A DNA stretch of 64,000 nucleotides from Actinomycetes bacterium (GTDB taxonomy: Bacteria; Actinomycetota; Acidimicrobiia; Acidimicrobiales; RAAP-2): positions 25,018 to 89,017 of the forward strand of contig JAJYDR010000002.1 in assembly GCA_021777285.1 (NCBI GenBank), written 5' to 3'. Position 1 is the first letter of the stretch. Each line of letters opens with the position of its first letter. The translations under genes were made by a program, and so were the position numbers. The notes under the pieces are model-generated. The model did no database searches. It was not told the DNA's origin and saw only the letters and a list, made by a program, of their open reading frames with translations. Of this stretch, positions 50,330 through 60,850 are shown piece by piece.

Positions 50330-50416
50330 GTCGGAGTGGCGGAATAGGCAGACGCGCCAGCTTGAGGGGCTGGTGCCCTCAGGGGCGTGCGGGTTCAAGT
50401 CCCGCCTCCGACACCA
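50330..50416 (+). tRNA. tRNA-Leu (anticodon GAG), with integration site at its 3' end
   Basis: Class II tRNA with acceptor stem GTCGGAG/CTCCGAC, anticodon stem CCAGC/GCTGG around loop TTGAGGG (GAG, reading CUC/CUU), long variable arm, T-arm GGGTTCAAGTCCC and encoded CCA (50414-50416). The last bases are the attL of an integrated element, which leaves the tRNA sequence intact. A TAGACT at 50314-50319 could be its -10 box. Confidence 0.96.
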
Positions 50417-51834
50417 ACATTCTCCGGTACTTTGAGACCAACCTCGTCGAACGTGACGTTGATTTGTGGACTTCCTGCCACTTTCACCTCGAGATGATCG
50501 GGAAAGACCTTGATCCACTCCACGAGGTTCTCGACGAGGATGCGCCGCTCGCGTTCGTTGGCTTCCGCCCACAGTTCCTCGATGTCGAGTTCGGCAAGGA
50601 TTCGCGCTACCTCCTCGAATCGCATCTCTATGTCGCTCTTGAGGCGTTCCTCTTGGCCTTCCTGGGCCAACTGCTGACGTACGGTTTCAATCGATGCAGC
50701 GATGCGCGATTCCTCATCCCGGAACCCGTCTGCACTGATCTTGCCTGCGTAGTACAGGTCGAGGAGTTTTCGCCGTTCGTCAGTGAGGGACTTCAAAACC
50801 TTCGCCGGTGCCGCCCGTCGGGCCCGGCGCGGCGTCGCCGCGCCCGGGTCCCCACCGGCCAACCGCCGGCGAATTGCCTCTCGAAGACTCTCGTCATGGC
50901 CGACCAGCCGAAGACCCACCACGGCGGCTCTGGACAGGCCACGGGTGCTTCTTGCCGGTTGCGTGCAACCCTGACCTCGGTGGCGGCACTTGTAGGTCAC
51001 GTTGCCCTTGCCGTTCTGGGCCACGACCATGCGCCGATCACACAGCCCGCAGATCACCCGGCCCGACAGGGGATCGTGAGATTGGCGCACTCCCTTGGCG
51101 CTGCCCCGGTGGGCGCATTTCCACTCCTCTTCGCTCACCAGTGCCTCGTGAAGGCCATGCTGCCATTCCTTCTGTCGGTTCAAAACTTCGCCTCGGTAGA
51201 TGCGCGAGTCCAAGATCGCCTTGACGGTGGAGTACTTGATGCCTGTTCGGTCCTCAATGGTGCGATACGAGTGACCCTCGCCGCGAAGGTGGAAGCACTC
51301 CACTACGCGCGGTGCGTCGGCGTTCGCTACGAGCAGACCGCCAACGAGGTCGTAGCCGGTCTTGGGTCGGTTGGTCCATCGACCCTCCTTGATCGCTCGA
51401 TCGAGGCCCATGCGGACGTTCTCGGCCAGTGCGTCGCGGTAGTACTCGGCCTGGCCACCCATCATCGAGAAGAACCATCGCCCGGCAGGCGAGGACAGGT
51501 CGAGATTCTCACTGACCGAATGCAGGGTCACGGCGTGCCGTTCAAAGGTGTCGCGTAATTCCATCAAGTCGCGCAGGTTGCGCGAGAGCCGGTCGAGTTT
51601 CCAGACAATGACGTGGGTCGCGTGTCCCGCCTCGACGGCCGCCAGCATCTGCTGTAAGCCCGGTCGCGACATGTTCTTGCCCGAGATGCCCGGATCGGTG
51701 ATAACGGTGATCTCGCCGAGGTCGTGCAAGTCCGCGTATGCACGTAGCTTGTCAGTCTGACCCTCGATCGAGAATCCCTCCTCCGCTTGTTCCTCCGTCG
51801 ACACGCGGCAGTAGGCCAGAGTCAGCACGCACAC
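50395..51834 (-). CDS. Large serine recombinase (integrase)
   Basis: 479 residues. N-terminal resolvase domain with nucleophile Ser12 in AYCRVSTEEQAEEGFS and WKLDRLSRNLRDLMEL near residue 78; recombinase domain (PKTGYDLVGGLLVANA, SRIYRGEVLNRQ); zinc ribbon with CGLCDRRM and YKCRHRGQGC; long helical C-terminal region. Its 3' end lies inside tRNA-Leu: the last codons and the TGA are antisense to the T-arm. Translation could also begin at the GTG two codons later. It is the only recombinase in the element and so should catalyse its integration, probably at this tRNA. Confidence 0.93.
   Translation of the reverse strand: MCVLTLAYCRVSTEEQAEEGFSIEGQTDKLRAYADLHDLGEITVITDPGISGKNMSRPGLQQMLAAVEAGHATHVIVWKLDRLSRNLRDLMELRDTFERHAVTLHSVSENLDLSSPAGRWFFSMMGGQAEYYRDALAENVRMGLDRAIKEGRWTNRPKTGYDLVGGLLVANADAPRVVECFHLRGEGHSYRTIEDRTGIKYSTVKAILDSRIYRGEVLNRQKEWQHGLHEALVSEEEWKCAHRGSAKGVRQSHDPLSGRVICGLCDRRMVVAQNGKGNVTYKCRHRGQGCTQPARSTRGLSRAAVVGLRLVGHDESLREAIRRRLAGGDPGAATPRRARRAAPAKVLKSLTDERRKLLDLYYAGKISADGFRDEESRIAASIETVRQQLAQEGQEERLKSDIEMRFEEVARILAELDIEELWAEANERERRILVENLVEWIKVFPDHLEVKVAGSPQINVTFDEVGLKVPENVGVGGGT
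50405..50418. repeat. attL of the integrative element
   Basis: CCTCCGACACCAAC: last nine bases of the tRNA including A73, the CCA and two following bases. The same 14 bp recur at 54460-54473. Confidence 0.85.
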
Positions 51835-51921
51835 CCCCTTTCGCTCCGCTCTTCTTGGCCACGATACGCAACGCGATGGTGACGAGCGCGGACGCGACGG
51901 TGTCGTAATCGGCGGGCATCA

Positions 51922-52980
51922 TCACGGCAGCCCGTACTTCTGCCGCTTTTCAACGATGCGGGTCATCATCGATCGTCCCGTGGCGCGTGAGTACAGATGC
52001 AGTTGACGTTCCAGATTGGGTATCAGGTCGATGAGCGACTCTGAATTCGTGAGTGCGCCGAAGTTCGCCAGTTGGCCCACGAGAGACGGCATCAAGTTCG
52101 CCAGGATCCCCTCGCGCTTGGCTCCGTACGCGCGATCGATCCCGATAGCGCCGCCCGCGATGCGTGCGCGTTGTACGGCCTGCCACTGCTCTGACAGGGG
52201 CCAACGGGACTTGGTCTCGTCACTGGTCGGCACTCGATGGGTGAGCCACTCGTGGGTCAGGTAATGCCACATGGATCCAGACGCACCGAGAACCTCGTCG
52301 GGTGTCGACACCCCAAACTGGCGGAGAACTTCTCTGTGGAGTTCGAATTCGACTCGCAACACGGGCAGTGTTGGGTCATAGGACTCGCCCCACAGCTCTT
52401 TCCAGTAGGCGGTACCGTTCTTCGCGGACTGGATGGTCTTGTCGTACAGCCGCGCTGAGATCGTGCCCGATTCGCGCTTGCCGATCTTTAGACCATTGAA
52501 CTCCTGGGCGGTCTCAAAGAGGTTTCTTGCATCGGCGCGACTAACAAATTCGTGGCGATCGTCACCACTGATGTTCCAACCCTGAAAATCAGCGAAGAGG
52601 TCTATGCGGCTCACCTCGAGCAGGACCGGGCCGCATTCCGCTTCGAGAAGGCGACGCGCCCACTCGACCACCGCCGAGACGCCAGCACCGTGAAGGAATT
52701 CGGCGCGCGGCTGCACACGGACCGCCGGAATCTTGTCCGTGGGTGTGAATCCGATACGCGCGTAAGGGTGGTCAATGCAGTAGCGATAGAGGCCCCACTT
52801 ACGCGGCTGCATCTGCATATCGAGCCCACCAAGGACGATGTTCACTGGCCCTTCTTCTTCGTCAGCGATGTGCCGAAGGGCATCCAGTCGGGCGAGGAAG
52901 TCAGCGGGCAGGGCGGCGCGACCCGACAAGTAGAGCGCGTCTACCCCGGACGTCAACTCAGCCACTCGTGCTACTTGCAT
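51922..52980 (-). CDS. Rolling-circle replication initiation factor (Rep_trans-like)
   Basis: 352 residues. The pattern LLEVSRIDLFADFQGW, then GTISARLYDKTIQ, then VLRVEFELHREVLRQFG matches the replication initiation factor family (PF02486 type), found in rolling-circle plasmids, phages and integrative elements. The family nicks its origin with a Tyr; the candidate Tyr in the RLYDK motif is present, but I cannot prove it is catalytic. ATG start without clear Shine-Dalgarno. Between the recombinase and the HTH-like gene, all on the minus strand. Implies an excised replicating form. Confidence 0.72.
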   Translation of the reverse strand: MQVARVAELTSGVDALYLSGRAALPADFLARLDALRHIADEEEGPVNIVLGGLDMQMQPRKWGLYRYCIDHPYARIGFTPTDKIPAVRVQPRAEFLHGAGVSAVVEWARRLLEAECGPVLLEVSRIDLFADFQGWNISGDDRHEFVSRADARNLFETAQEFNGLKIGKRESGTISARLYDKTIQSAKNGTAYWKELWGESYDPTLPVLRVEFELHREVLRQFGVSTPDEVLGASGSMWHYLTHEWLTHRVPTSDETKSRWPLSEQWQAVQRARIAGGAIGIDRAYGAKREGILANLMPSLVGQLANFGALTNSESLIDLIPNLERQLHLYSRATGRSMMTRIVEKRQKYGLP

Positions 52981-53040
52981 AGTTACGAGTGTAATTACAT
53001 CGATGTGACACTCGCAACAATACGACTAGGAAATCCCGAT

Positions 53041-53424
53041 CTACTTTTTGGGATGGCGACCCACTTTCCGCGTCTCCGACGCCCAGTAAGCCCTGGGATC
53101 GATGGTGATGCCCGGCATAACGAAGACGTCAGGGTGTTCTCCGGTGACCCTGCGGAACCGAGCGATCTTGCGCCAAATCGTGGATTTGTGCATTCCGAAT
53201 TCTTGGAGACCTTCGAAGCCACCGTAGAGGTGCCACATCACCCAGAAGCCGATCAAGTCCTCAACGACTTGAGTGCCGAGTGGCTCCAGGACGGTGATCA
53301 TTCGCGCTTTGAGAAATGGGGGAGTGCGCCGGTCTACTGCCTTCACGTAGGCCTTCCACGCCTTCTTGGCGATTCCTTCGCCTTCGGGGGTGTCCATTGG
53401 ATCAGAGCGAAAGTCTGAGGTCAT
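53041..53424 (-). CDS. Small helix-turn-helix-like protein
   Basis: 127 residues with a basic C-terminal half. The stretch EFGMHKSTIWRKIARFRRV looks like a recognition helix with STIWRKIARF, as in small DNA-binding proteins of actinobacterial elements. A second in-frame ATG ten codons on is an alternative start. Placed upstream of the replication gene in the same direction, 60 bp apart, it could regulate replication or excision. No named family was recognised. Confidence 0.6.
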   Translation of the reverse strand: MTSDFRSDPMDTPEGEGIAKKAWKAYVKAVDRRTPPFLKARMITVLEPLGTQVVEDLIGFWVMWHLYGGFEGLQEFGMHKSTIWRKIARFRRVTGEHPDVFVMPGITIDPRAYWASETRKVGRHPKK

Positions 53425-53557
53425 AGTCGCATCCTAGCGACTGGCTCGGAAACGTACGGACTGACATGGCGAGATCACCTGTGCAGTTTGCGGGTGCTGT
53501 TATACAGGGAGCGCACCCGAGTCTGGTCAGTGGAACCTGTGAAGCACAACTGCAACC

Positions 53558-54307
53558 ATGAATAGAGTGACGAATGTGATTGTGCCAGTACCTTCCGCAT
53601 CTTCTGCCCTCATCGAAGTTCTGGCAAACGGTCTACAGGTCGGCACAGCAACCGGATTTTTCGTGCGCAAGGATGACGTCACGTACCTCGTCACGAACCG
53701 TCATGTTGTTCGCGGCCGTCATCAGGCCGACGACGTTCCATTGCACACTTCAGGCGCTTATCCTGACTCGCTTCATGTCTACTATCACACCGCAACACAA
53801 TTGGTGATTTGGAACGAGGTGAAGGTGGAACTCTACGACTCCGCTGGTGATCCTCTCTGGCTCGAACATCCTCGCTTTGAAGGCGCCGTTGACGTGGCTC
53901 TTTTGGCTCTGCCACAGTTAGATCCGGGAAATGCCATCAGTTACGACCCGTGGGAAACTTCAAAGGTTCTCGCCATGCCTTCCGAACGCTTGAGCATTGT
54001 CGGCTTCCCGTTTGGGATTGTCAACGCTGGAATACTCGCCATCTGGGTGCAAGGCTTTATCGCAACAGAACCTATGCTCGACCACGACGGCCTTCCTTGC
54101 TTCCTTGTCGACAGTAGGACGCGGGCCGGTCAATCTGGCTCACCTGTCATCTTCTTCGGTGCTGACTACAGAACTCCAGAAGGTGGCAGGGTGATTGCCG
54201 GGACGCAACTGGTTCAACTCATGGGAATCTACTCCGGTCGAATCAATAGTGAATCGGACTTGGGTATTGTGTGGAAGCCCTCTGTCATCCAGGAGATCTT
54301 GCAGTAG
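53558..54307 (+). CDS. Trypsin-like serine peptidase (element cargo)
   Basis: 249 residues, without signal peptide or membrane segment, so probably cytoplasmic. Chymotrypsin-fold catalytic triad is visible: His49 in YLVTNRHVVRG, Asp112 in FEGAVDVALLALP and Ser193 in TRAGQSGSPVIFF. Divergent from the element's replication genes over a 133-bp gap. GC content is visibly lower than in the chromosome. No partner domain, zymogen region or immunity protein seen. Could be a stress or defence effector, or act on host proteins; nothing in the sequence decides this. Confidence 0.8.
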   Translation: MNRVTNVIVPVPSASSALIEVLANGLQVGTATGFFVRKDDVTYLVTNRHVVRGRHQADDVPLHTSGAYPDSLHVYYHTATQLVIWNEVKVELYDSAGDPLWLEHPRFEGAVDVALLALPQLDPGNAISYDPWETSKVLAMPSERLSIVGFPFGIVNAGILAIWVQGFIATEPMLDHDGLPCFLVDSRTRAGQSGSPVIFFGADYRTPEGGRVIAGTQLVQLMGIYSGRINSESDLGIVWKPSVIQEILQ

Positions 54308-54691
54308 CGCCCCGTAAGTCCCGGGCGCGAGGGACGGTTCGTCGAGACCTTGGTCATCACAAACCCGTGCTTTAGAACAATCAGTCTTGAGTTATCGAGC
54401 CGGGCCCCACGTCCTGTCTCCACGCAATGAGACGCCAGTCGGAGAATGTCCCGGTCGGCCCTCCGACACCAACGGAATCGAAGACGCGACGAAATCGTGG
54501 CGCGTAGAACGCGGCCGAGCAAAACTTGATCTGTCCGATCTTGTTTCACTGATCCAAGCCGCCGTGGTACGGGCGGCAACTTTTTGGACATCGCATTCCA
54601 TATCGAAACGCATCGCTGGGAAGATCTGCGCGACCGCCCTCTGACGAGCAAACTCAGTGCCTGAAGTGAACCTCGAGTTCCAGGTGATTCG
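54308..54691. other. Gene-poor right end of the element and pre-insertion flank
   Basis: 384 bp without a convincing gene. 54308-54459 is the right arm of the integrative element; it would encode the alternative 3' end of the recombinase in the circular form (stop at 54381). 54460-54473 is attR. 54474-54691 is the sequence that originally followed tRNA-Leu; short open frames there have no recognisable features. Confidence 0.6.
54460..54473. repeat. attR of the integrative element
   Basis: Exact copy of the 14 bp at 50405-50418. The 10-bp arm CGGAGAATGT at 54440-54449 is the inverse of 50417-50426 next to attL, so both arms would flank the core in the circular attP. Confidence 0.85.
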
Positions 54692-55033
54692 CTAGGCGAG
54701 CGCACTCGCCAAGTTTGCGTACCGAGCGAGATACGCGTCAGAGGCGTCATCTACCGTGAAGAAATCGAGACTGAAGTTGCTCATCAGAAGTTGGCCCCTT
54801 GTGGTTAGGGCTTGGGCCTCCTCGGTGTCATGGATCGACATCAGAGTTCCGCGATCGCCCTTGACGATCCACATCCCGTTTCCGTGCTCGGAGAACAGCA
54901 TCTCGGGCTTGCTGCACTTTCCCGCCTCGGCCTGCTTGGTCCAGAATGCGGTTACGTCAACCCCGTACTCCAGTGCCTTCATTTCGCGTCCCGGCACCGG
55001 CTCTGTCCACGTGACAACCATCGCTGCTTTCAT
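54692..55033 (-). CDS. Conserved-looking protein of unknown function
   Basis: 113 residues, start ATG preceded by GGGAG at a suitable distance. Soluble, no signal peptide. Trp- and Met-containing stretches (VVTWTEPVPGREMKALEYG, GNGMWIVKGDRGTLMSIHD) and a compact alpha/beta pattern suggest a folded small domain of the ferredoxin-like or ABM-like kind, but no family is assigned. It stands alone between the element's attR and decayed insertion sequences. Confidence 0.65.
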   Translation of the reverse strand: MKAAMVVTWTEPVPGREMKALEYGVDVTAFWTKQAEAGKCSKPEMLFSEHGNGMWIVKGDRGTLMSIHDTEEAQALTTRGQLLMSNFSLDFFTVDDASDAYLARYANLASALA

Positions 55034-55298
55034 CGCGACTCCCTTCGCCGTTGGGTGTCAACCACCCAATTTGAGGCATAGCGTCGGTACGGGCATGGAG
55101 CCAGGGTCGAAAGTCACACGTTGGCGGATTCAATTGCGACCCCAAATTGGGTATTCGAGCAGGGACGAACGGTCCTCTGGGTAACTGACGATAACTTCGC
55201 GCCGGGGTTAGTACAGGGACTCAAGAATTGCCTCGAGGTCGTTGACGGCGGCAGCTCTCGGTATCACAGACAGCGCCCTCGACCACAGGATGAAATAG

Positions 55299-55831
55299 GA
55301 CAAGATCGATCGAGGGCTGATCCCCGGGCAATCGAGTGTCGGGTCGATGGAACTACTTCAGGAACGCAGGAGGATCCGCGAGCTCGAAACCGATGATGGG
55401 ATCCTGCGTTGAGGCAAAGAACTGCTGCGATCAAACACCAATCGCTCAAAAGGAACCACCTGGTGATCGACGTGCTCGTCGGCATCGGGTTTAGCATCCA
55501 ACGGCGCACTCGAGTTCTCGACGTCTCATCCCAGCACTACTGCGCCTATCGCCGACGGACGATGTTGCCCACGATCATGCGCTGCGAGTGGCTGAAAGCA
55601 CTCATCAAAGAGGCCTACGTCGCATCACTCAGCACCTACGGCGCACGGCGGGTGCGCGCCGAACAGACCAAGGGCCGAGGAATCCACGTGAATGTGAACC
55701 TCGTCACGGCCTTCCCGCACAACGCCGGCATGGCTGGACCTCCGAGACTCGCCAAGGTCAAACGAATCAAGCGTGTGTCCAACGGCGATGAACTCGTCGA
55801 GCGCGAGTTCCCCCGCAACGACCTCGACGAA
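55299..55831 (+). pseudogene. Decayed IS3-family transposase (orfA end plus orfB start)
   Basis: From 55299 a frame reads like the C-terminal leucine-zipper part of an IS3 OrfA (KIDRGLIPGQSSV, RRRIRELETDDGILR, then a stop). From about 55409 another frame reads like the N-terminal HTH part of OrfB (VLDVSSQHYCAYRRR, STYGARRVRAEQTKGRGIHV, ELVEREFPRND) and breaks off before the DDE catalytic domain. Stops, frame changes and the lost 3' half mark it as dead. It abuts a second remnant in opposite orientation. Confidence 0.75.
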
Positions 55832-55842
55832 AGTCCTAACAT

Positions 55843-56103
55843 CTATTTAGCAGCCCAACTTCGTACGCGGCACTCCAGACGCAACTGCCTCTTCGCTCGC
55901 TGCGGCCCGGCGATCCCGGCCCGATCGGTGCTCGAGAAACCTTCCTTGTCGCAGCGGCAAATACGCGCTTGGCACACCCAGTTGCCCACGGTCTGCTCGA
56001 CGAATCCCAGTTCTTTGGCCACGCCAACGATCGTGCGGTGCTAATGAGTGACGAGGGTGGCCATGTCTCGACGGAACTCCTTCAGATATTGACGGCGGCG
56101 GCT
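55843..56103 (-). pseudogene. Decayed IS3-family orfA remnant
   Basis: On the minus strand the frame reads YLKEFRRDMATLVTH, stop, then VGVAKELGFVEQTVGNWVCQAR, matching the HTH region of IS3 OrfA proteins, and continues to a stop at 55843. An in-frame stop near 56041 and loss of the following orfB show decay. It differs from the orfA part of the neighbouring remnant, so two different IS3 elements were involved. Confidence 0.72.
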
Positions 56104-56534
56104 AGGGAAATAATCGTCCTATGTATTGATGACTGCCACGACTACCTCCTATGTGAGGTGTCCGGCAAGTGGGGGAAGGTCAGACATCTACGCCGAAGTT
56201 TCAACTAGGGCCGTGACGCGAAGTAATCGAGAAGGCACCCGTGAACCAAAATCTCCGTCGACCCATTGACTGCCTCAAGTCACTGCTAGATAGTGGAAGA
56301 ACCCCTAAGTTCGCACTCTTATTTAGAAGCAATACTCAGTTCGGTCAGGTACCGACATTTATCAGGAGAAGCGGACACTTAACGGCCCTATCTTGTCCAT
56401 GAATTATCCGATGAGCCTTCACTCGAATGACACAACAGTGACACTCCGGGTTGACAACCCCGTCCCTTCGTCTTACCGTCAAACCAGCGAGGGCATAGAA
56501 CTTGTCCCAGAACAGGGACATGATGGGAGGAAGG
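56104..56534. other. Intergenic region upstream of the secreted protein gene
   Basis: 431 bp of comparatively AT-rich DNA. No gene or RNA recognised. It presumably carries the promoter of the following secreted protein gene; the end holds GGGAGGAAGG as a ribosome binding site directly before the chosen ATG. Confidence 0.5.
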
Positions 56535-58319
56535 ATGAAGAATACCTTCATCAAGGTGCTGGCGGGTTTGAGTTTGATCTCGGTTACCGCTGTCGGCGCC
56601 GGGTCGGCCGGGGCCGTGACGAATTCGATTCTTTTGAACGGCTCCTTCGAGTACGGGAGTTATCCAGTTCCGGCCCCCTCGTGGACTGATCTGACTGCGT
56701 CAAATCCATGTTCGGGGATTTGCATTGACAATTGGACCGTCACGAGTGGCTCCGTTGACTGGGTCGGCTCGTACTGGACTGCGGAGGATGGGAATTACAG
56801 CATTGACCTCAATGGAACGTCACAAGGGTCAATTTCGCAAACCTTGACTACTGTGCCAGGAGCAACATACGACGTGAACTTCCACCTGTCCGGCAATTTT
56901 GACAATATTCTTTACGCCAACGATTCGTGGGTTGTTGGGCATACCGGGGCGAATCAAATGACGAAGACAACGACCGTCTCCGCTAGCGGCGATATGGCGT
57001 ATCCGTATACAGCTACCTACAACAGTTCGTGGAGTCACTCCAACATGGAATGGGCTCCGGAACTTTATCAATTCACCGCGACGTCCAATTCGACAACGTT
57101 GATGTTCACTGGTGATCCCACTGCTGGTGGTTGGGGGCCGGTGATCGACAACGTGTCAGTAACTCGGATTGGACTTGGCGGTGGCAACTCGCCGTCGTAT
57201 GATCCTGCGACGAATGTTGTCGACACGTACAACAACTTCGCAGTTGTCGACACCAACCGTCCGATTACCAGCGCGGGCGACTTGACAAGTTGGTCGTACT
57301 ACGCCGCCCAGACCAACGGCTCGGTGGCGCTCATCGTAACTAGTCCGGTGACGAGTGTCGGCAGCGGCGCGAACGTTTTGTACGTCAGCCCGCTTTCGAC
57401 GCCTAGCAGCACTGGTCTCAATACTGTGTCACTACCAACGTTGGTGCCCGTTGCGCCGGGCGACAACGTGGGTCTCTACTTTCAGGGAACTCCGGTGGTC
57501 GTGGATTATACTTATACGACCAATCCTGCAGTTAATGCAGGCTGCACTCAGTCCTGTGTGTACTACACATCAAATGGTGTCTACCCGTCGGAACCATCTC
57601 TTGGCTCAATGGGCTTGCAAGGCGCCACAAGTCGGATTTACTCATTCTCCGTGGACGGGATTACAGCTCCTGACGCACCGGCGGTGGCGCTTGTGGCGGC
57701 CAATGGCCCGCAACAATTGACCGTTGCCTGGACCGGTCCATCGTGGTGGGGCGGCACGGATCCGGGGACGTACGACGTCTACATCGGCACGTCTGCTGGT
57801 GGAGAAGACTACGGCAACCCGGTATGCACGACGAGTTCCACCTCCTGCACCATCAATGGCCTTGCCGATGCCACCACCTACTACGTCACCGTCGAAGCGG
57901 TGAACGTAGCGGGTAACTCCCTGCGCTCCAACGAGGTTTCGGCCATGACGTGGTATAACTTCAGCGGTTTCTATTCGCCGATCAAGTTCAGTGGAAGTTC
58001 GTCTGATCTGAACATGGCCAAAGCTGGCTCTGCCGTACCGGTTCAATTCAGCCTCGGTGGAAATGCCGGACTTGACATCTTCGTTGCGGGCACACCGACA
58101 GTTGCCATTTCGGGGACTTGTACCGCTCAGGCATCAACAGTGTCCACCGCGACGGCCGGAGGCAGTACTTTGTCCTTCGACTCGACGACGGACTCCTACA
58201 CATACCCTTGGAAGACGTCAAAGAGTTGGGCGGGATGTACGGGCGAGTTGACCGTTCAATTCGTCACATCACTGACGATGCAAAGTTATATCGAGACCGC
58301 TTATTTCAGTTTCCATTAG
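56535..58319 (+). CDS. Secreted multi-domain protein with choice-of-anchor C, fibronectin III and PxKF-like domains
   Basis: 594 residues from ATG 56535, chosen because GGAGG lies 4 nt upstream and a clean signal peptide follows (KNTFIKVLAGLSLISVTAVG, cleavage near AGA). Residues about 32-212 resemble DUF642/choice-of-anchor C domains (LLNGSFEYG, SVDWVGSYWTAEDGNYSIDL, TYDVNFHLSGNFD). About 215-377 is an unassigned beta-rich stretch with a Cys pair. About 378-473 is a fibronectin III domain (LTVAWTG, TTYYVTVEAVN). About 476-594 matches PxKF-type C-terminal domains (KAGSAVPVQFSLGGNAGLDIF, KTSKSWAGCTGELTVQF). No LPxTG or C-terminal membrane anchor. Low GC, lying between mobile remnants. Confidence 0.75.
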   Translation: MKNTFIKVLAGLSLISVTAVGAGSAGAVTNSILLNGSFEYGSYPVPAPSWTDLTASNPCSGICIDNWTVTSGSVDWVGSYWTAEDGNYSIDLNGTSQGSISQTLTTVPGATYDVNFHLSGNFDNILYANDSWVVGHTGANQMTKTTTVSASGDMAYPYTATYNSSWSHSNMEWAPELYQFTATSNSTTLMFTGDPTAGGWGPVIDNVSVTRIGLGGGNSPSYDPATNVVDTYNNFAVVDTNRPITSAGDLTSWSYYAAQTNGSVALIVTSPVTSVGSGANVLYVSPLSTPSSTGLNTVSLPTLVPVAPGDNVGLYFQGTPVVVDYTYTTNPAVNAGCTQSCVYYTSNGVYPSEPSLGSMGLQGATSRIYSFSVDGITAPDAPAVALVAANGPQQLTVAWTGPSWWGGTDPGTYDVYIGTSAGGEDYGNPVCTTSSTSCTINGLADATTYYVTVEAVNVAGNSLRSNEVSAMTWYNFSGFYSPIKFSGSSSDLNMAKAGSAVPVQFSLGGNAGLDIFVAGTPTVAISGTCTAQASTVSTATAGGSTLSFDSTTDSYTYPWKTSKSWAGCTGELTVQFVTSLTMQSYIETAYFSFH

Positions 58320-58330
58320 CGAATAGGGAC

Positions 58331-58377
58331 CCACCCACGCCGCTGAGTTGCAAGAGGCGACGCAGCGGCGTGGGTGG
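58331..58377. terminator. Hairpin terminator after the secreted protein gene
   Basis: Perfect 15-bp inverted repeat (58331-58345 with 58363-58377) around a 17-nt loop, 11 nt after the stop codon. No T-run follows. Confidence 0.7.
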
Positions 58378-58474
58378 ATAGTCAGTGCACAATGACAAAT
58401 CTTCCACTTAGACCGCCGATACCTAGGTGAATTCAATCGGTTGTCGCAACACCCCGTGACAACGGAGGTGTTCG

Positions 58475-59398
58475 GTGGTTCGTCGACAGCAAGCAGCGGA
58501 TCGGGCAGAGCGGCCAAGGATGAGATCGCCCGGACACCCACCGTTCCCGCGCGAAGTCGAACGGCTGTTTTGGATTGAGACCGCCAAGGGCCTCATGCCG
58601 GCCGAAGCGGCTGCGGCCGTCGGTGCATCGCAACCCGTTGGGCAACGCCGGTTCCACAATGCTGGCGGCATGCCACCTTTCAGTCTTGAGCCCTTGTCGG
58701 GGCGCTACCTGTCGTTCCACGAACGCGAGGAGATCGCGTTGCTGAATGCGCAGGGAAAAGGTGTGCGTCAGATTGCGCGAGCGATTGGTCGAGATCCCTC
58801 GACAATCTCCCGAGAGCTGCGCCGCAACGCGGCGACTCGCGTTGGGAACGCTGGCTATCGCGCGTCGGTGGCCCAGTGGAAGGCCGAATTGGCGGCGAAG
58901 CGTCCCAAGCCGGCCAAATTGGTGACGAATCCGAAGCTGCGCGCTTACGTCGAAGAGCGGCTCTCGGGCCAGATCAGTCGGCCCGACGGAACGATTGTCA
59001 CGGGACCACCGCACCCCCGCTTCACCGGCAACGGCAAGCCGCACCGCAAACACCGGGCCTGGACCCGGGCCTGGAGCCCCGAGCAGATCGCCCAGCGCCT
59101 CAAGCTGGACTTCCCCCATGATGAAAGCATGCGCATTAGCCACGAGGCCATCTACCAGGCCCTCTACATCGAGGGCCGCGGGGCGCTCAAACGAGAGTTG
59201 GTCTGGTGTCTTCGAACGGGACGTGCGCTTCGCGCTCCGCGTGAGCGCTCCCGGCGAGTGACGTGGGCTCACGTCACGCCCGAGACGTTGATCAGCGAAC
59301 GTCCGGCCGAGGTCGAGGATCGGGCGGTGCCCGGCCACTGGGAGGGCGACTTACTCATTGGACTTGAGCGCTCTGCCGTTGGCACGGTCGTCGAGCGC
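58475..59398 (+). pseudogene. IS30-family transposase, 5' part
   Basis: First 308 residues of an actinobacterial IS30-type transposase with the long N-terminal extension: HTH region VERLFWIETAKGLMPAEAAA, the IS30 motif LSFHEREEIALLNAQGKGVRQIARAIGRDPSTISRELRRN, and the start of the DDE domain with the first Asp in GHWEGDLLIGLE. The frame is cut after VVER by the inner element; its missing part resumes at 61683. GTG start; ATG at 58520 is an alternative. Confidence 0.88.
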
Positions 59399-59530
59399 TG
59401 TCCGCGTACACCCTGATATGTCGCTCCGCGTACGGGCTGATATGTAGGTCGCCATTGTTCAATTGATGTCGTTGAAGTGCCATCCTCCTTGGAGTTAGGA
59501 CCAACCAACACCAAGGAGGATGACCCTTCC

Positions 59531-60850
59531 ATGTTGCTCTCTCAGGAGGAATGGATGAACCTGCGCTCACTGCGGTCGTTGAAGGCGGCCGGCGCGAACT
59601 GGGCGGAAAGCGCCCGCGAGGCGGGCTGTGACTACCGCACCGCGAAGAAATACCTGACCACCATGCCCTCGACATCGCCGCCGGCGGTGCACGCTCGCAC
59701 CCACCCTCCTAAGGTGATCGAGCCCTACGCCGAGCTCATCGATCGCTGGCTGGAGAAAGAGCCGCGCCTCGCGGGCACGACGATTCACCAGCGCCTGGTC
59801 ACCGAACACGGCTTTTGCTACAGCTACCAGCGCGTGAAGATGTATCTCGCCGAAGCCCGCCCGCGGGTCTGTCCCGAAAGGCCCGACCTGCACCGGCGCT
59901 TTGAGGTCTTACCCGGCGCCCAGGCCCAGGTCGACTGGGGCGACGAGGGGGTGATCGAAACCGCGCACGGCCCGTTGCACGTCTACAGATTCCACATGAC
60001 GCTCTCGTACTCGCGCGACCCGTTCTGCTGCTTCGTCGCCAGTCAGGACCTCGTGACGTTCTGGGCGTGCCACGTGGCGGCCTTCCACCACTTCGGTGGC
60101 GTGCCGGCGTCGATTCTCTACGACCGCACCAAGACCGTGGTGAAGCGTCACGTGAGCCGCAACATGGACGTACCACTGCACCCCGAGGCGATCGCCACGG
60201 CCGCGCACTACGGCTTTGCGATTATCGTCGCCGCCCCCTACCGGCCCCAGACCAAGGGACGCGTCGAACGCCAGGTGCGCATCGTGCGCGAGGGGGTCCT
60301 CGTCGGGCGCGTGTTTACCAGCCTCGAAGAAATGAACGCCGCGTTCATGCAGTGGCTGCCGTGGCGGCGCGCCCAGGTGCATCGCACCCACGGCGAGGTG
60401 ATCGCTGGCAGCCGAAGTGGACCGTGCCGCCCTCGGCGCACTGCCACCAAGTGACTACGTGGTCACCGAGCGGCACCTGCGCAGCGTCGGCAAGGACTGC
60501 CTGGTCAGCTTCGAGGCCTCGCTCTACTCGCTGCCCTGGCGCGAGGTGCGTCGTCCGATGCGCGTGGAGTTGCGCGTGACGAGGGGCACCGTGGCGATCC
60601 ATCGCCTGGGCGGGACCGGCGAGCTGCTCGCCCTCCACGAGAGGGCCATCTCTCGTGGGCCTGGATGGTCGACGAGGCCCACTGGGCGGGACTGCCCGAC
60701 GGGCGACGCGAGAGCGTCGCGTCCCCGGTCACCGATCTCGCCGCGCCGGACCACGAGGACGTGACCTTCCTCGCCTCGCGTTCCTCGCACGTCGCGGTCA
60801 TCGTGCACCGGCGCGATCTCTCCTTCTACGACGCGGTGGGTGTGGCATGA
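59531..60850 (+). pseudogene. istA: IstA transposase with two compensating frameshifts
   Basis: IS21-family DDE transposase: N-terminal HTH (SLRSLKAAGANWAESAREAG), Asp in AQVDWGDEGVIE, Asp in SILYDRTKT and Glu in QTKGRVERQVRIVRE. The frame shifts near 60407 (one extra base after GEVIA) and again near 60655 (one base short before WMVDEAHW), so the C-terminal beta-barrel part (VTERHLRSVGKDCLVSFEAS) is out of frame. Without the two changes it would have about 440 residues and overlap istB as ATGA. Start ATG 59531 follows GGAGGATG. Confidence 0.82.

Follow-up and report, generated by a model that had tools for sequence, protein, structure and literature searches.

A large serine recombinase element at tRNA-Leu(GAG) and a candidate tRNA-anchored system of cassette accretion in its actinobacterial genus

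The analysed stretch of an Acidimicrobiales genome (the window, 64,000 nucleotides of contig JAJYDR010000002.1, to which all positions refer unless stated otherwise) contains a 4,055-bp element inserted at the 3′ end of a tRNA-Leu(GAG) gene and encoding a large serine recombinase (LSR). On balance, this is probably an autonomous LSR element belonging to a system in which small gene cassettes accrete behind the same tRNA gene in related genomes. The target gene (50330-50416, + strand) was identified by ARAGORN and scored 53.7 bits against the Rfam tRNA model. A direct-repeat search located one copy of the 14-bp repeat CCTCCGACACCAAC over its 3′ end (the attL core, 50405-50418, +) and the second copy at 54460-54473 (the attR core, +). 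The start-to-start spacing of the two copies, 4,055 bp, is the length of the element; CCTCCGACACCAAC is the sole family with 100% identical copies found by this search, and the window holds a single repeat-bounded unit. An earlier sequence-only reading of this DNA had described an exact repeat bracketing a block of about 4.06 kb that carries a serine recombinase and a cargo peptidase, and each of these parts was confirmed, repeat and coordinates included.

Attachment site, genes and relatives of the element

Joining the two ends of the element, as on a circle, produces a 42-bp site with the arms CGGAGAATG and CATTCTCCG and an inner GTCGG/CCGAC pair. The left arm occupies 54440-54458 (+), where CGGAGAATG is followed by GTCGG at 54454-54458, and it belongs to class B of the array sites described below; the right arm occupies 50418-50426 (+). 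Around a centre between 54460 and 54461, at the left edge of the repeat, 15 of 21 positions are complementary. Scores of 15 or more are reached at 9 of the approximately 64,000 comparable centres across the window, and at this same centre attL, attR and the restored target reach at most 9 of 21. Judged from sequence, the joined-end dyad is the attP site expected of a serine integrase and would exist on the circle only, with a predicted crossover at the dyad centre, 54460/54461. On the bacterial side, we propose that GTGCGGGTTCA in the T-arm of the tRNA (50387-50397, +) is the half-site (B) recognized by the recombinase. Copies of GTGCGGGTTCA in the same register are scattered over secondary sites, and related LSR elements occupy several of them. 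The T-arm copy GTGCGGGTTCACGTCGG, in register with the core, is dispersed in 47 of 99 genomes of the genus when up to one mismatch is allowed (for example at L082:6697, L086:5897 and L026:7119), and several related recombinase elements are inserted there.

The recombinase, of 479 aa as integrated (50395-51834, − strand), matches PF00239 (1e-40), PF13408 (3e-7) and the integrase family phrog_95 (4e-89), while its score against PF07508, 20.2 bits, lies marginally below the cut-off of 21.1. It thus combines the resolvase N-terminal domain with the recombinase/zinc-ribbon C-terminal region that characterizes LSR integrative elements, and the short identical core within attL and attR and the imperfect dyad of attP are likewise those of such elements. 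An assignment to the Ccr recombinases of SCC cassette chromosomes did not hold, the CcrB model giving 119.6 bits against a cut-off of 900. The reading frame has no stop inside the element; it crosses the core into the tRNA gene and ends at a stop codon at 50395-50397, and if read over the circle junction it would encode 502 aa, 23 residues more than the integrated form. Homologues at E ≤1e-30 were found in 21 of the 99 genomes, including a second class (A) that is 41-46% identical to the window recombinase (class B). Of 27 matches, some of them partial genes, 23 could be placed by eye, with the 3′ end at tRNA-Leu(GAG) in 11 cases, at the tRNA-like site GTGCGGGTTCACGTCGG in eight and at an array-type junction in four; of the remaining four, the G010 match lies at the end of a contig and the G138 match at a tRNA fragment of 36 nt, and G030 and G049 contribute one each.

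Three related class-B elements with both ends on a contig occupy the same tRNA gene in other genomes: one of 4,554 bp with recombinase and Rep-like genes (G026, dyad 16/25), one of 6,339 bp with only the recombinase of the three shared genes (G031, 17/25) and one of 4,581 bp with all three (G114, 16/25). Dyad scores were 11 for a decayed element in G012, and 12 and 15 for class-A elements in G022 and G035. In G043, the closest species with this locus assembled, identity of 89-91% extends to the end of the tRNA, where other DNA takes over, and neither the recombinase nor the Rep-like protein found a match in the genome. It is hardly credible that the repeat arose by chance and that the four genes simply belong to the chromosome; this view is contradicted by the dyad at the repeat edge, by further species that carry related elements with matching ends at this tRNA and by the absence of the whole element behind the G043 tRNA. 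The view gains something from the fact that no exact empty site was found: among the fetched loci, window positions 54474-60000 have one 92-bp match only. An empty tRNA-Leu(GAG) site continuing with the bases after 54473 had been proposed as a check, and it was obtained in part, the element being absent from G043 but the exact site not being found. G001 matches the upstream sequence at 100%, on a contig that stops before the tRNA, and circular forms among short contigs were not detected by end overlap in the seven tested. Taken together, the attP dyad, the dyads of the three relatives and the element-free G043 locus support the earlier proposal that the element may excise and reintegrate. A core site 4.4 kb downstream of a tRNA-Leu match in another family of the order (G080:C1 64810-69348) hints that single elements of the window type also occur outside the genus.

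Adjacent to the recombinase gene lies a gene for a 352-aa Rep_trans-like protein (51922-52980, −), a probable rolling-circle initiator and possible relaxase. Its designation as a Rep_trans-like initiator had to be qualified: the protein itself gave no Pfam match at E 0.1, but 14 of its 49 homologues matched PF02486 (Rep_trans) at E ≤0.1, the best at 3.5e-4. Tyr179 and Lys181 are invariant among the homologues, and the structure model has a pLDDT of 91.7; a sequence search for solved structures returned no credible one. Among plasmid records there were five matches with identities of 24-32%, all in plasmids typed as non-mobilizable. The best is encoded by a 1,724-bp Mesotoga plasmid with two annotated genes (97% of the length, 24.5% identity, E 2e-13), and partial homologues covering 28-52% of the length occur in four 1.8-kb Synechococcus plasmids. 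Two small Thermus phages also carry a homologue, there named endonuclease, while a pattern scan of viral contigs detected no relative. A rolling-circle initiator is the simplest and the probable reading of this protein. Replication of the element as a circle, as had been suggested, is supported because a nearly full-length homologue occurs in so small a plasmid and partial ones in others of similar size.

Rep_trans proteins can double as relaxases, and MobT relaxases overlap with Rep_trans initiators (PMC5704250). This overlap, with the Rep_trans affinity of the homologues, favours an alternative in which the 352-aa protein is mainly a MobT-type relaxase and the element, instead of being a replicon, is an integrative mobilizable element dependent on a borrowed conjugation system. 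We consider this unlikely in view of the homologues in small non-mobilizable plasmids and in the two Thermus phages; the plasmid identities are low, however, and both roles can coexist. The possible relaxase role also makes uncertain the earlier statement that the element has no transfer gene. The four proteins of the element had no Pfam match to FtsK/SpoIIIE, RepAM or Prim-Pol.

The two remaining genes encode a helical, helix-turn-helix-like protein of 127 aa (53041-53424, −), possibly a regulator or directionality factor, which adjoins the Rep-like and LSR genes in several relatives, and a trypsin-like peptidase of 249 aa (53558-54307, +; Trypsin_2 in Pfam, with a phrog match), which is the cargo. 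A search of 100 relatives matched the 352-aa protein in 15, in several cases by short pieces only, and the order recombinase, Rep-like gene, 127-aa gene is kept in G030 (two copies), G048, G059, G114 and G138. No counterpart of the peptidase was detected in the related loci with which it was compared. It may be a defence gene, since it matches the PADLOC candidate PDC-S45 (2e-19) and the phage family phrog_7688 of unknown function. Outside the element, a 211-aa frame at 55409-56044 scored 26.2 bits against HTH_21 (cut-off 28.1) and is a possible transposase remnant.

Cassette arrays behind tRNA-Leu(GAG) in the genus

The left half of the element together with the core, expressed as the strict pattern TCGGNYCTCCGACACCA, was found in 43 of the 99 genus genomes, and its reversed control in none. 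Outside the genus, four of 242 genomes sampled from the order contain it in one or two copies each, and there the reversed control matched two. A weight matrix built from 74 seeds identified 156 sites in 53 fetched loci versus none in the same loci reversed, and 196 sites when 20 further loci were included; these loci were selected for holding matches, and the site statistics therefore describe arrays and not the average genome. All 151 pairs of neighbouring sites within 5 kb lie on the same strand, a limit that omits one opposite-strand pair 5.2 kb apart in G029 (L079), and all 67 sites downstream of the tRNA, in the 35 loci with a tRNA end, are oriented like it. Many arrays lie immediately behind tRNA-Leu(GAG). 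Arrays and tRNA share one contig in G013, G024, G107, G109 and G102, among others, and there are also arrays on contigs without the tRNA. The densest fetched array, that of G040, packs 20 scored sites into 19.7 kb and is possibly the continuation of another contig whose end lies immediately behind the tRNA.

The intervals between sites have a median length of 990 bp, leaving room for one gene. The 97 longest reading frames of the cassettes were assigned by Pfam to acetyltransferases, methyltransferases, glyoxalases, toxin-antitoxin proteins and many families that occur once (among the 25 listed of 66 families), and PADLOC recognized six defence models among cassette genes. Gene orientation is unbiased, with 52 genes in the same direction and 45 in the opposite one. 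The cassette left arms fall mainly into two classes, B resembling the arm of the window element and A that of the second recombinase class; the classes were set by text rules that leave 55 of 136 rows unclassified. Gene-less units of 59-78 bp make up 13 of 136 intervals. Eleven of these 13 measure 63-69 bp and consist of about 20 variable bases followed by the conserved arm (loci L074, L077, L078, L086, L088, L089, L095, L098 and L100); they may represent the minimal recombination unit. Two islands of 9-10 kb, in G052 and G030, end with 63-68 nt of the tRNA 3′ end (L102:10351 and L103:10099 in tRNA-oriented coordinates), and the one in G052 adjoins a tyrosine recombinase. Another recurrent element start resembles NTCAGTGGGAGGGTTCCCAC.

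Homologous cassettes are shared between genomes. A comparison of 161 cassettes of 200-6000 bp yielded 35 pairs from different genomes with homology over at least half of the shorter cassette, although the pairs are not independent, one 630-bp family supplying several of them. In 20 of these pairs, four of them LSR elements, the homology sets in no more than 60 nt from the core on both sides. A G105/G052 pair is 98.7-99.1% identical over two aligned pieces, a G018/G040 pair is 86% identical from the first base, and a G040/G051 pair is 85% identical with homology from the core. Such core-starting homologues argue against the explanation that the arrays are fossils, in which successive complete LSR elements lost their interiors and single cassettes were never mobile. 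Remnants of LSR 3′ ends in G012, G040, G030 and G048, as well as degenerate sites and the gene-less units, would fit a fossil origin, which we nevertheless regard as quite improbable.

The sequence-only reading had called the combination of genes in the window unusual. The element itself is real, but it does not stand alone: a family of such elements exists, and the same site organizes cassette arrays in the genus.

Candidate mechanism and the enzyme behind the arrays

According to the accretion model that we favour, the LSR would join the attP dyad of the circle to the 3′ end of tRNA-Leu(GAG), and recombinases of classes A and B in the genus would use one common core. The Rep_trans-like protein would probably nick the circle for rolling-circle replication, and perhaps would also start transfer. 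The tRNA would act like the attI site of an integron, behind which cassettes of about 1 kb accumulate, each ending in an element-side left arm and the core. Most likely the cassettes are passengers, so that the tRNA-adjacent LSR element would exit together with the units behind it, by recombination of attL with a distal site; alternatively, the LSR element might exit alone and strand the cassettes. The passenger model is favoured because there are array carriers without an LSR and because most cassettes are one-armed. A more tentative proposal, possible but well short of probable, is that the LSR moves one-armed single-gene cassettes in trans into the tRNA entry site, as a serine-recombinase counterpart of the integron that would generate ordered arrays throughout the genus without an integron integrase.

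Support for serine-recombinase exchange comes from the base before the core, which tracks the tRNA of the host. Genomes with T at this position of the tRNA have 105 sites with T and nine with C, and those with C have 59 with C and three with T (20 sites omitted). Fisher's test on a hand count among the matches listed, restricted to genomes with the tRNA found and with G104, G105, G061 and G016 dropped, gave 68 T and 6 C versus 3 T and 61 C (p = 4e-28). Serine recombinases require matching central bases, and the base rule therefore points to exchange at the dyad centre. Seven of nine homologous cassette pairs across T- and C-genomes differ at this base as their hosts do.

Other observations, besides the missing exact empty site, weigh against the accretion model. 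The T- and C-genomes are lineages, and the base rule does not represent 176 independent events. In only five of the T/C pairs does the alignment reach to about 320 nt or less from each end; the base differs as in the hosts in three of these five, each of which involves G051, but not in the other two. An LSR of the window family was absent from all 12 chosen array carriers, and seven of the 12 had no serine recombinase (PF00239) at all; the 12 genomes are incomplete assemblies. The site pattern and an LSR do occur together in other genomes (for example G030, G059 and G009), yet the pattern is present in 12 of 21 LSR genomes versus 31 of 78 others, a loose tracking to which each LSR element contributes its own site. 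Most cassettes outside class B lack a recognizable right arm: in 98 non-class-B cassettes the match between a cassette's own start and end was no better than in shuffled pairings (3.89 versus 3.95 of 14), and in 25 class-B cassettes the excess was modest (7.00 versus 6.13, sd 0.36; best of 2,000 shuffles 7.40). Across 13 arrays, the site score showed no trend as sites lie farther from the tRNA side (mean rho −0.03, p = 0.79).

Several of these points would suit an alternative in which another enzyme, for example a tyrosine recombinase using the tRNA-Leu(GAG) end, builds the arrays and the LSR elements are visitors to a hotspot. The absence of the family LSR from the 12 carriers and of any serine recombinase from seven of them, the single arm of most cassettes, and the islands of G052 and G030 with their 63-68 nt of tRNA end, adjoined by a tyrosine recombinase in G052, are all in its favour. 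PF00589 tyrosine recombinases are present in all 12 carriers, the best matches resembling what we take to be the XerC/D pair. Against this explanation, the cassette left arms resemble those of delimited LSR elements of both classes. A serine-recombinase crossover over two bases would suit both the conserved centre and the base rule, and four loci have LSR genes at array-type junctions, two of these genes being partial. We judge construction by another enzyme to be rather unlikely, and retain cassette accretion by LSR elements, with the window element as an autonomous member, as the preferred interpretation.

Relation to known systems

Integron cassettes are small gene units with one recombination site each that stand in tandem behind an anchor site, and ordered collections of single genes are known mainly from integrons and their tyrosine integrase. 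An array system with serine-recombinase sites would be a second route to such a collection. It could account for some of the accessory genes of this genus, an actinobacterial lineage without cultured members, and the recombinases it would provide are compact, have a defined target in a tRNA gene and come with a two-base rule of compatibility that can be tested. A literature search by title and abstract opening, covering mostly open-access journals, yielded no description of serine-recombinase single-gene cassette arrays. The arrays share with integrons the small one-site units in tandem behind an anchor and a cargo that includes acetyltransferases and toxin-antitoxin genes. They differ in that their core and arms resemble those of LSR elements and in their unbiased gene orientation, and in the window only the element's own recombinase gene stands beside the anchor.

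Actinobacterial integrative and conjugative elements (AICEs; PMC3218068) resemble the window element in pairing an integrase with a replication initiator, whereas the window element gave no match to an FtsK/SpoIIIE-type Tra protein, to RepAM or to Prim-Pol. Accretion of cis-mobilizable elements (CIMEs; PMC5704250) likewise involves non-autonomous units with att sites that are mobilized in cis by a neighbouring element; there it is described for integrative and conjugative or mobilizable elements and their remnants, and here the units are small cassettes in long rows.

Together with CIME accretion, the closest known parallel is that of the ssrA genomic islands of Dehalococcoides (McMurdie et al., 2011; PMC3146451). 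That work describes tandem repeat-bounded units and a serine recombinase (DsiB) whose reading frame overlaps attL, and considers integrase-less islands as possible cis-mobilizable elements moved by accretion. In both systems the serine recombinase adjoins attL with an overlapping frame, and tandem islands lie behind a small RNA gene with short direct repeats and a conserved motif directly upstream of the repeats; the tandem units are found here in the arrays of the relatives and the frame overlap in the window. Here, by contrast, insertion is at the acceptor end of tRNA-Leu(GAG) instead of ssrA, one LSR takes the place of DsiB plus DsiA, and a Rep_trans-like protein, units of about 1 kb and two LSR classes with a common core are present. 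The array system is a variant of the Dehalococcoides ssrA tandem serine-recombinase islands, shrunk to integron-like units, and the window element is most likely one of its autonomous members.

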